From positions 2,356,001-2,420,000 of the forward strand of contig NZ_AP022617.1 in NCBI RefSeq assembly GCF_010731575.1: 64,000 bases of DNA, in the 5' to 3' direction. The position numbers and the translations under genes were made by a program. The first letter of the stretch is position 1. The number at the start of each line of letters is the position of its first letter. Under the pieces are notes generated by a model. The model did not search any database. It saw only the letters and a list, made by a program, of their open reading frames with translations, and was not told where the DNA came from. Below, piece by piece: positions 49,420 through 51,921 of the stretch. The DNA is from Mycolicibacterium monacense (GTDB taxonomy: Bacteria > Actinomycetota > Actinomycetes > Mycobacteriales > Mycobacteriaceae).

Positions 49420-50331
49420 CTGGACGCGGTGCCGTTCCAGTTCTCGGTCGACGAGGGCGCCGAGGTGATTCGCCGCAAGCTGCGTGACCTGCCCCGGCGG
49501 GAGGTCCATCCCGAGGTCGAGGCGCAGGACCGGACGATCCCGGGGCCCGCGGGCGACATCCCGATCCGCGTGTACCGGCCCGCGACCGCGGAGTCGTCAC
49601 CGCCGGTGGTGGTGTTCTTCCACGGCGGCGGGTTCGCCGCCGGAGACCTCGACACCCACGACGGTGAATGCCGGCACCACGCGGTGGCCGCCGACGCGGT
49701 CGTGGTGGCCGTGGACTACCGGTTGGCGCCCGAACATCCGTACCCGGCCGCGGTCGAGGATGCGTGGGCGGCGCTGACCTGGGTCGCCGGACACGGCGCC
49801 GAACTGTCGGTGGACACGAACCGCCTTGCAGTGGCCGGCGATTCCGCCGGCGGGAACCTGTCGGCGGTGATGACCCACCGCGCCCGTACGCGGGGCGGAC
49901 CGCCCATCGCCTTCCAGCTGCTGTGGTATCCGGTGACGATGTGGGACATGTCGCTGCCGTCGGTGACCGAGAACGCCGGCGCACCGATCCTGGACCGCAC
50001 CGCGATGGACGGGCTGTCGCGCTGGTATGCCGGTGAACTGACCGATCCCGGGCACGAGCTGGCGCCGGGCCTGGCGGACGACTTCACCGGGCTGCCGCCG
50101 GCGTACATCGCGGTCGCGGGGCACGACCCGCTGCGCGACGACGGTATCCGCTACGCCGAATTGCTCTCCGCCGCAGGCGTTCCGGTCGAAGTGCACAATG
50201 CGGAGACGCTGGTGCACGGATACCTCGGCTACGCGGGTGTGGTGCCCTCGGCGACGGCGGCCACCGACCGTGGGCTGGCGGCGTTGCGGGCGGCGCTACA
50301 CCCCGAGGCGGGTCAGCGTCCCGAGAAGTAG
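49369..50331 (+). CDS. Alpha/beta hydrolase, hormone-sensitive-lipase type (LipH/LipI-like)
   Basis: A 320-residue esterase/lipase. The oxyanion motif HGGGF starts at His85, the nucleophile Ser159 sits in GDSAGG, and acid/base residues are in the [10 protein letters not shown] loop and LVHGYLG near 283. No signal peptide. M. tuberculosis has lipH (Rv1399c) and lipI (Rv1400c) here; only one copy is present. It probably hydrolyses short- to medium-chain esters. It ends 19 bases inside the convergent SDR gene. Confidence 0.9.
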
Positions 50332-51203
50332 TGCCCCTGCTCGAGATCGTCGATCAGCCCGACGTGCGTCGGCTTCCAGGCGAACGCCTGTCGCGTGAGA
50401 TCGCTCGAGGCGGGCACATCGAGAGCGAACAGCGCACCGATCCACCCGAAGTGAGCGGCCGTCGACGGCCCCGGAATCGACCTGACCGGCACGTCGAGGT
50501 GTCGGCCGATGATCTCGGCGATGTCGCGGACCGGCACGCCCTCGTCGTCGACCGCGTGCAGGACGGCGCCGGCGGGTGCGTCCTCCACCGCACGCCGGAA
50601 CAGTGCTGCGGCGTCCAGCCGGTGCACCGCAGGCCACCGGTTGGTGCCGTCGCCGGGATGACCGGACACGCCCTGGCGACGCGCGATGCCGATCAGGTGG
50701 GCGACGAAGCCGTGATCGCCCTCCCCGTGCACGGTGGGCGGCAGCCGCAGGATCGAGACCCGGACCCCGTGGTCGGCCCACGGCAGCGCCGCCGCCTCCG
50801 ACAAGCGCATCGAACCCGCGCCCGCCGCAACCTGTTCGGTGATGAACCCGGTCGGACTCGCGAGACCGGCCATCCCGGAGGCCACGACGAGAGGCCGATC
50901 CGATCCGGCCAGCACGGCGCCGAGCGTCTGGATCGCGCGCCGGTCGAGCTCCGCGGCGTTCGCGTAATCGTCGAAGTCGTGGCGGTACGCCAGGTGGATG
51001 ACGCCGTCGCAGGCGTCGGCCCCCGCTCGGATGCCGTCGGGATCGGTCAGGTCACCGCGGTGCACCTCTGCTCCGGCCGCCGCGATCGCGTCGGCTGACG
51101 CGCTCGACCGCGCCAGCCCGACGACGCTGTGACCGGCCGCGATCAACTCGGCGACGACGGCCGAGCCGATGAAACCGGAAGCGCCGGTGACGAAAATCCG
51201 CAT
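50313..51203 (-). CDS. NAD(P)-dependent epimerase/dehydratase-like SDR
   Basis: A 296-residue extended SDR. The cofactor motif is TGASGFIG (6-13). It has VHRGDLTDPD and RLPPTVHGEGDHGFV, but no YxxxK: at that place it reads MRLSEAAAL. This pattern defines an actinobacterial subgroup of putative oxidoreductases with NRWPAVHRLDAA. The ATG has a perfect AGGAGG 4 bases upstream. Upstream are two TetR operator copies, so it is the probable target of the divergent TetR gene. The substrate is unknown. Confidence 0.85.
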   Translation of the reverse strand: MRIFVTGASGFIGSAVVAELIAAGHSVVGLARSSASADAIAAAGAEVHRGDLTDPDGIRAGADACDGVIHLAYRHDFDDYANAAELDRRAIQTLGAVLAGSDRPLVVASGMAGLASPTGFITEQVAAGAGSMRLSEAAALPWADHGVRVSILRLPPTVHGEGDHGFVAHLIGIARRQGVSGHPGDGTNRWPAVHRLDAAALFRRAVEDAPAGAVLHAVDDEGVPVRDIAEIIGRHLDVPVRSIPGPSTAAHFGWIGALFALDVPASSDLTRQAFAWKPTHVGLIDDLEQGHYFSGR

Positions 51204-51212
51204 GATTCCTCC

Positions 51213-51262
51213 TGATGTCAGTGACTGTCATCAGAGTAACGCCGATGACAGTCACTGTCATC
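51213..51262. promoter_or_regulatory. Duplicated TetR operator in the SDR/tetR divergent promoter
   Basis: Site B (51244-51262) GATGACAGTCACTGTCATC is a perfect 19-bp palindrome. Site A (51214-51232) GATGTCAGTGACTGTCATC differs by one arm base and extends by one T:A pair. Centres are 30 bp apart. TACTCT, a -10 for the SDR gene, lies exactly in the 11-base spacer (51233-51238). TAGGAT (51267-51272), the -10 for tetR, follows site B and ends 6 bases before the ATG at 51279. Confidence 0.85.
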
Positions 51263-51278
51263 CCGTTAGGATCTGGGC

Positions 51279-51854
51279 ATGGTCCGCTGGCAACCCGACG
51301 CCCGGGGGCGCCTCGAGCAGGCGGCCCTGGAGTTGTACGCGGAACGCGGTTTCGACGGGACCACGGTCGCCGACATCGCCGACCGGGCCGGCCTGACTGA
51401 ACGCACCTTCTTCCGGTACTTCGCCGACAAGCGCGAGGCGCTGTTCGGCGGCCAGACCGCAATGATCGATCTGATGGTCAAAGCCGTTGCCGCAGCGCCG
51501 GATTCCGTCGCACCGATCGAAGCTGTCGCATCGGCGCTGAACGCGGTGGCGGCCACCTTCGACGGCCGTCTCGACGACGTCCGCCGGCGTCAGGCCGTCA
51601 TCGCCGCCACGCCGGCCCTCCAGGAGCGCGAATCGTCGAAACTGGCACTCTTGGCCGCCGCGCTGACAGATGCGCTGCGCGCCCGCGACGTCGCCGAAAC
51701 GACCGCTCGGCTGGCCGCGGAGACCGGCGTCGCCGTCTTCCGCATCGCCTTCGAGCGCTGGGTCGCCGGTGGCGATCAGCGTGATCTGGCGCAGCACCTT
51801 CGCGAGTTGCTCGACGAGTTGGCCACGATGACCGCGCGACCCACCACCACGTGA
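51279..51854 (+). CDS. TetR-family transcriptional regulator
   Basis: A 191-residue repressor. The N-terminal domain has RLEQAALELYAERGFDGTTVADIADRAGLTERTFFRYFADKREALF, a canonical TetR helix-turn-helix (about 8-55). The C-terminal ligand domain is not assignable. It diverges from the SDR gene; two palindromes between them are its probable binding sites, giving joint repression and autorepression. The ATG at 51279 appears leaderless. The gene is followed by the monooxygenase after 67 bases. Confidence 0.92.
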   Translation: MVRWQPDARGRLEQAALELYAERGFDGTTVADIADRAGLTERTFFRYFADKREALFGGQTAMIDLMVKAVAAAPDSVAPIEAVASALNAVAATFDGRLDDVRRRQAVIAATPALQERESSKLALLAAALTDALRARDVAETTARLAAETGVAVFRIAFERWVAGGDQRDLAQHLRELLDELATMTARPTTT

Positions 51855-51921
51855 CCCCTTTGACCGATCGCCGCGGCGTCGGCTAGAACGGCAGGCGAGG
51901 CCCGCGACGGAAGGCGGCACG

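Follow-up and report, generated by a model that had tools for sequence, protein, structure and literature searches.

In the mycobacterial pairs described by Balhana 2015, whose table lists 30 regulators, the TetR gene lies divergent to its target, mostly less than 200 bp from it and with a palindrome between the two (PMC4482099). The mycofactocin repressor MftR, likewise a mycobacterial TetR repressor, is described as having one 27-bp operator, T-N2-GGCA-N5-TGCC-N2-A, and long-chain acyl-CoA as its ligand (PMC8728441). For the Tet repressor, the report on the mutants V36F, E37A, and P39K, engineered for tetO-4C5G, describes how changes in the helix alter operator choice (PMC6515661). Our survey of the open-licence literature, judged by titles and the beginnings of abstracts, found no study treating the TetR/SDR pair considered below, its motif or a two-residue code.

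The locus studied here has the same divergent layout as the pairs of Balhana 2015. In the window, by which we mean the whole 64,000-nucleotide stretch of Mycolicibacterium monacense DNA that was analysed, an SDR gene on the reverse strand and a tetR gene on the forward strand are separated by 75 bases, and two 19-base palindromes, sites A and B, lie inside these bases (Table 1). The regulator is assigned to the TetR family by its TetR_N domain (PF00440, 52.8 bits against a cut-off of 24), and the two conserved intergenic palindromes are candidates for the palindromic operators that the family has at its own or a divergent promoter. It has in common with MftR the TetR_C_14 domain, which is the MftR C-terminal domain, but its score of 91.5 bits lies well below the cut-off of 224.9 for MftR itself (NCBIfam TIGR03968), and two 19-bp sites are found in place of the single 27-bp operator described for MftR (PMC8728441). 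The divergent TetR switch itself is of a known kind and is widely spread; the new aspect of this system, and an unusually clear one, is the proposed code that relates the recognition helix to the letters of the operator.

Table 1. Genes, candidate operators and predicted promoter elements of the tetR/SDR locus (positions in the window)
Feature	Position	Strand	Description	Basis
SDR gene	50313..51203	-	296 aa; extended-SDR fold; TGxxGxxG kept; no YxxxK	Pfam, conservation, AlphaFold2, Foldseek
SDR Shine-Dalgarno	51208..51213	-	AGGAGG; abutted by site A	Read from sequence
Site A	51214..51232	.	GATGTCAGTGACTGTCATC; predicted operator; one arm mismatch; 33.5 bits; kept beside orthologues	Repeat search
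Predicted SDR -10	51233..51238	-	TACTCT; within the 11-nt spacer	Read from sequence
Site B	51244..51262	.	GATGACAGTCACTGTCATC; predicted operator; perfect, 1-nt centre; 32.7 bits	Repeat search
Predicted tetR -35	51245..51250	+	ATGACA; left arm of site B	Promoter scan
Predicted SDR -35	51256..51261	-	ATGACA; right arm of site B; 17 nt from -10	Read from sequence
Predicted tetR -10	51267..51272	+	TAGGAT; ends 6 nt before the start codon	Promoter scan
tetR	51279..51854	+	191 aa; TetR_N and TetR_C_14; recognition helix T40-E41-R42-T43	Pfam; alignment for the helix

A preliminary description of this DNA had placed two palindromes 30 bp apart between the SDR gene and tetR, and the sites are found just so, 30 bp from start to start and with an 11-nt spacer (51233–51243). 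It had also stated that the sites differ by one arm base; that arm difference is present, but the centre base differs as well, making A and B unequal at 2 of 19 positions. In a first-order Markov simulation of the window (n = 40), palindromes of this shape with no more than one mismatch occur 20.9 times on average compared with 27 observed, and perfect ones 0.8 times compared with 1 observed, so that a single palindrome carries little weight. The window has one close pair of similar palindromes, defined as 19–45 bp apart with at least 15 of 19 positions equal; none of the 40 simulations has any. Across the whole genome, only A and B match GATGACAGTNACTGTCATC with up to three mismatches. A looser search, with a degenerate pattern and two mismatches, returns 24 further genome sites versus 6 for the backwards control; the best of the 24 reaches 17.3 bits with a matrix from the relatives, versus 33.5 bits for A and 32.7 bits for B, and a scan of the genome with the matrix finds nothing near these two scores elsewhere. 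The idea of a larger regulon in this genome was considered and set aside on these scores.

Within the genus, a TetR is present at E ≤1e-20 in 65 of 148 genomes, giving 79 loci (L007–L085), and at least two sites are found in 40 of the 41 loci that combine Glu41-Arg42 with a divergent SDR. Beyond the genus, relatives were gathered by a named-genome scan (best 80 of 247 matches), a plasmid search (26 records, 10 of them taken) and a phylum search (11 of 296 genomes at 1e-35), and several of these loci are metagenome-derived records. Like pairs lie beside relatives in Actinomycetota, Chloroflexota, Dormibacterota, Eremiobacterota, Acidobacteriota, Myxococcota, Deinococcota, and Pseudomonadota, and a Nostoc plasmid has a weaker pair beside a TetR relative. 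A later set of 97 further loci came from a class-wide search (match in 84 of 394 genomes), from which all new rows were taken in except G735, of the same genus.

When the first set was scanned with position 8 left blind, at least two sites were found in 144 of 156 upstream segments of the Arg42 class, compared with 2 of 3072 control segments elsewhere in the same loci. At least two sites are kept in 97 of 100 loci of the first set that have Glu41-Arg42 and an SDR, and in 56 of 68 Arg42 loci of the later set. Fewer than two were found in 12 of 156 Arg42 loci of the first set and 12 of 68 of the later set, and a finder based on symmetry detected no pair in 42 of 278 loci. All of these are counts of loci, not of independent events: repeated genomes give identical rows (L008/L099, L011/L140, L012/L107, L013/L105, L016/L104, and L019/L110), L026 and L116 look alike, L225 shares its operators with L170, and some of the later loci may be repeats of earlier loci. 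The preliminary description had taken the palindromes for TetR operators that act on the promoters of tetR and the SDR gene and had named the absence of the palindromes beside orthologous genes as evidence to the contrary. They are kept there, at the 144 of 156 versus 2 of 3072 given above, and their letters follow the recognition helix, which favours that proposal; both palindromes are very probably operators of the adjacent TetR.

The relation between helix and operator involves two residues. Among the first 181 loci, arm position 8 is G in 428 of 472 half-sites beside Glu41-Arg42 regulators, whereas beside regulators with Lys, Arg or Thr at 41 and Arg42 it is C in 73 of 78 and G in 0; beside Ala41 it is mixed (15 T, 18 C, and 11 G of 44). 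The rule for residue 41 recurs in the later set, with G in 175 of 180 half-sites for Glu41-Arg42, C in 40 of 46 for Lys/Arg/Thr41-Arg42, and G in only 3 of 72 for all non-Glu residues with Arg42. The symmetry-based finder, which used symmetry and the outer GATG/CATC only, located a pair in 236 of 278 loci, and the presence of Glu41 matches that of G at position 8 in 233 of these 236. With the same finder, all 760 half-sites beside Arg42 regulators carry C at position 6, whereas 168 of the 172 beside Ser42 regulators carry G there. In 41 of 43 cases the Ser42 operators have a length of 20 bp, and the 19-bp scan yields no sites of this class by construction.

On the best tree, there are 9 changes at residue 41, and all 9 of the independent contrasts agree (one-sided p 0.002), in a test of Arg42 loci only that used a tree built without the recognition helix, ignored branch support and picked pairs greedily. 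Restricting the test to well supported branches left 2 pairs (about one each way), 4 pairs (about 2.7 for and 1 against) and 1 pair (for) in three runs, numbers too small for these tests to reach significance. The Arg/Ser42 switch occurs once or twice on the tree, so it is the counts themselves that carry the residue-42 part.

We consider it fairly likely that these regulators share a natural two-residue code, with arm base 8 determined by residue 41, and arm base 6 and operator length by residue 42, and that protein and operators have made about nine joint switches at residue 41 with the paired layout unchanged. In this code, Glu41 would specify G, Lys, Arg or Thr41 mostly C, and Ala, Pro or Ser41 C or T, with Ala sometimes G, while Arg42 would specify C in a 19-bp operator and Ser42 G in a 20-bp operator. 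Residues 41 and 42 presumably touch operator bases 8 and 6, and we take them to correspond to residues 38 and 39 of the Tet repressor. The specificity mutants reported for that protein have recognition-helix residues that set operator letters, as we propose here; those mutants were engineered, whereas the present system offers natural variation at two residues across one subfamily (PMC6515661). If the relation is causal, the operators of uncharacterised members would be readable from two residues, and the natural pairing of helix and operator makes the site choice of a TetR directly testable with single-residue swaps. By sequence, the nearest solved relative is 2dg7, a putative transcriptional regulator in the PDB that aligns over almost the full length (E 6e-42 with the single sequence and 2e-61 with the profile), and which we take to be SCO0332 of Streptomyces coelicolor. 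Its recognition helix reads T-R-R-S, versus T-E-R-T in the TetR of the window, and the rule therefore predicts C at position 8 of its operator.

Both sites overlap predicted promoter elements, and each arm of site B contains the predicted -35 of one of the two divergent promoters. In the predicted tetR promoter, 16 bases separate the -35 from the -10, and the latter lies 4 nt past site B, in agreement with the preliminary description, which had the tetR -10 directly after the palindromes. A TANNNT ending 6–8 nt before the tetR start is seen in 162 of 180 TetR loci compared with 421 of 73800 control anchors, and because this element is kept at that distance from the start codon across relatives, the tetR mRNA is probably leaderless. 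An SDR -10 inside the spacer had also been proposed, and the predicted TACTCT falls there, with a predicted SDR transcription start near 51226 that site A covers. The SDR -35 and -10 are 17–18 nt apart in 71 of 102 loci, and no -10 of fitting placement was found in 19 of the 102.

Arm position 5 was compared over the 82 Glu41 loci that have both an SDR and a 19-bp pair, the rows of which are related. It is T in 78 of 82 loci in the outer arm of A, divided in the inner arm of A (A 40, T 34, and G 8), mostly T in the tetR-side -35 arm of B (T 64 and A 17), and A in 60 of 82 in the SDR-side -35 arm of B. An A at this position improves a TTGACA-like -35, so the SDR-side arm of B seems shaped for promoter function, whereas the tetR-side arm for the most part does not, a reading for which these counts are suggestive only. 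We also considered a grading of the two sites by symmetry, the preliminary description having held that they may differ in affinity, and discarded it: A outscores B in spite of the perfect symmetry of B, and position 5, at which the arms are unlike, is loose in three of the four arms.

From the features observed, namely both sites, their conservation with the TetR, their tracking of the recognition helix and the conserved -10 elements, we infer with high confidence a switch in which A and B are the operators of the adjacent TetR. One dimer bound to B would cover the -35 of both divergent promoters, at their predicted positions, and shut off tetR and the SDR gene alike. A second dimer on A, with both sites then occupied, would cover the SDR transcription start and tighten SDR repression, and a small molecule, probably a substrate of an NAD(P)-dependent oxidoreductase, would release the repressor. 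A simpler scheme, in which only B matters and A is a relic or weak accessory, agrees with the finding that in most SDR-linked loci B begins about 33–37 bp ahead of the tetR start, whereas the position of A varies with the spacing; we regard it as unlikely, since at least two sites persist in nearly all loci of the first set with Glu41-Arg42 and an SDR and since A scores as high as B in the window. Palindromes in general can also serve another DNA-binding protein or act as RNA hairpins, such as a terminator or attenuator. Such a role is highly improbable here: no terminator-like site was found in 51100–51400, the sites lie upstream of or at the predicted transcription starts, and the operator letters follow two residues of the TetR across phyla.

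Within the two-operator switch, it had further been suggested that two dimers bind cooperatively to sites three helical turns apart, which would make the phase between them essential, and we view this as a tentative idea that is somewhat doubtful. Pair spacing is 29–34 bp in 117 of 143 loci, 35–36 bp in 6, 39–45 bp in 16 and other in 4. The main class fits a requirement for phase, as do 10 loci at 43 bp (about four turns), nine of them from Chloroflexota, but the 6 loci at 35–36 bp are about half a turn off. Furthermore, no peak at 10.5 bp is seen in the phase measure, which is 0.65 there and rises from 0.42 at 8 bp to 0.72 at 13 bp, and promoter geometry, with the -35 in B and the start in A, may instead set the spacing. 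In the nine Chloroflexota loci with operators 43 bp apart (L112, L113, L115, L120, L123, L135, L144, L149, and L151), inspection by eye shows a tetR with a Shine-Dalgarno and a TATAAT-like -10 between the sites, indicating another promoter layout. A different arrangement is seen in L260, L281, L282, L284, and L294, where TetRs without a clean pair lie beside arrays of several GCCAGTCACTGGC-like repeats, and in four of these five (L281, L282, L284, and L294; not L260) the helix is N-E-R-T.

The preliminary description had allowed for control of the downstream monooxygenase by the same switch. We obtained no support for the monooxygenase as a third member: it does not occur next to any of the 180 other tetR loci in the first set (about 1.5–2.5 kb covered per side for most), and neither tetR nor SDR is present in any of 14 other monooxygenase loci, which are the best matches from 33 of 41 genomes. 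In those 14 loci, a lipase gene lies upstream (within about 0.5 kb) in 8, metK downstream in 10, and both in 7. The tetR/SDR pair of the window (50313–51854) sits between a lipase gene and a monooxygenase–metK pair. Because lipase and metK flank the monooxygenase in many of those loci and tetR/SDR is in none of them, the pair was probably inserted between lipase and monooxygenase in the lineage of the window, with empty sites elsewhere. By eye, the monooxygenase has a TTGACC (51860–51865) and a TAGAAC (51884–51889) separated by 18 bases; nothing comparable is evident ahead of this gene in the 14 relatives when viewed unaligned, and this makes a promoter of its own a weak argument against control. 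Read-through from tetR across the 67-bp gap may reach the monooxygenase.

The AlphaFold2 model of the SDR has a pLDDT of 94.9, and the glycine motif of extended SDRs is nearly invariant, with T6, G7, and G10 at 1.00 and G13 at 0.98 over 141 aligned SDRs. Among the 50 Foldseek matches listed, most are nucleotide-sugar epimerases or dehydratases, with TM to the query of 0.69–0.79. The active-site Tyr and Lys of catalytic SDRs, sought as YxxxK, are absent from the SDR of the window; its residues 132–138 read MRLSEAA, and at position 133 the multiple alignment has Arg in all 32 of its rows and the pairwise-aligned SDRs have it in 79 of 141. As the target enzyme is without the catalytic pair usual in SDRs, its inducer could give a lead to unfamiliar chemistry.

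A relative of this SDR is present in 222 of 278 loci. Among the 56 loci without one, we scanned the divergent genes of eight, chosen because their stored orientation was the reading one and the divergent frame was clear, and found seven other NAD(P)-type oxidoreductases (three classical SDRs, three zinc-type dehydrogenases/quinone reductases and one GFO/IDH/MocA) and one cupin; other loci were viewed by eye, and some had no obvious target. Hence the regulator group seems tied to redox enzymes, which suggests that the inducer may be a reducible or oxidisable small molecule, and the system would represent a cross-phylum TetR/oxidoreductase switch with defined candidate operators. In L081, L083, and L084, regulators of the Thr41 class lie beside cupin genes, not dehydrogenases (by profile scan for L081 only). 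In the mycobacterial locus L017, a TetR of the same class as that of the window lies, by eye, between a FabG-like SDR and a quinone-reductase-like gene, and a further operator ahead of the latter points to a possible two-target version.
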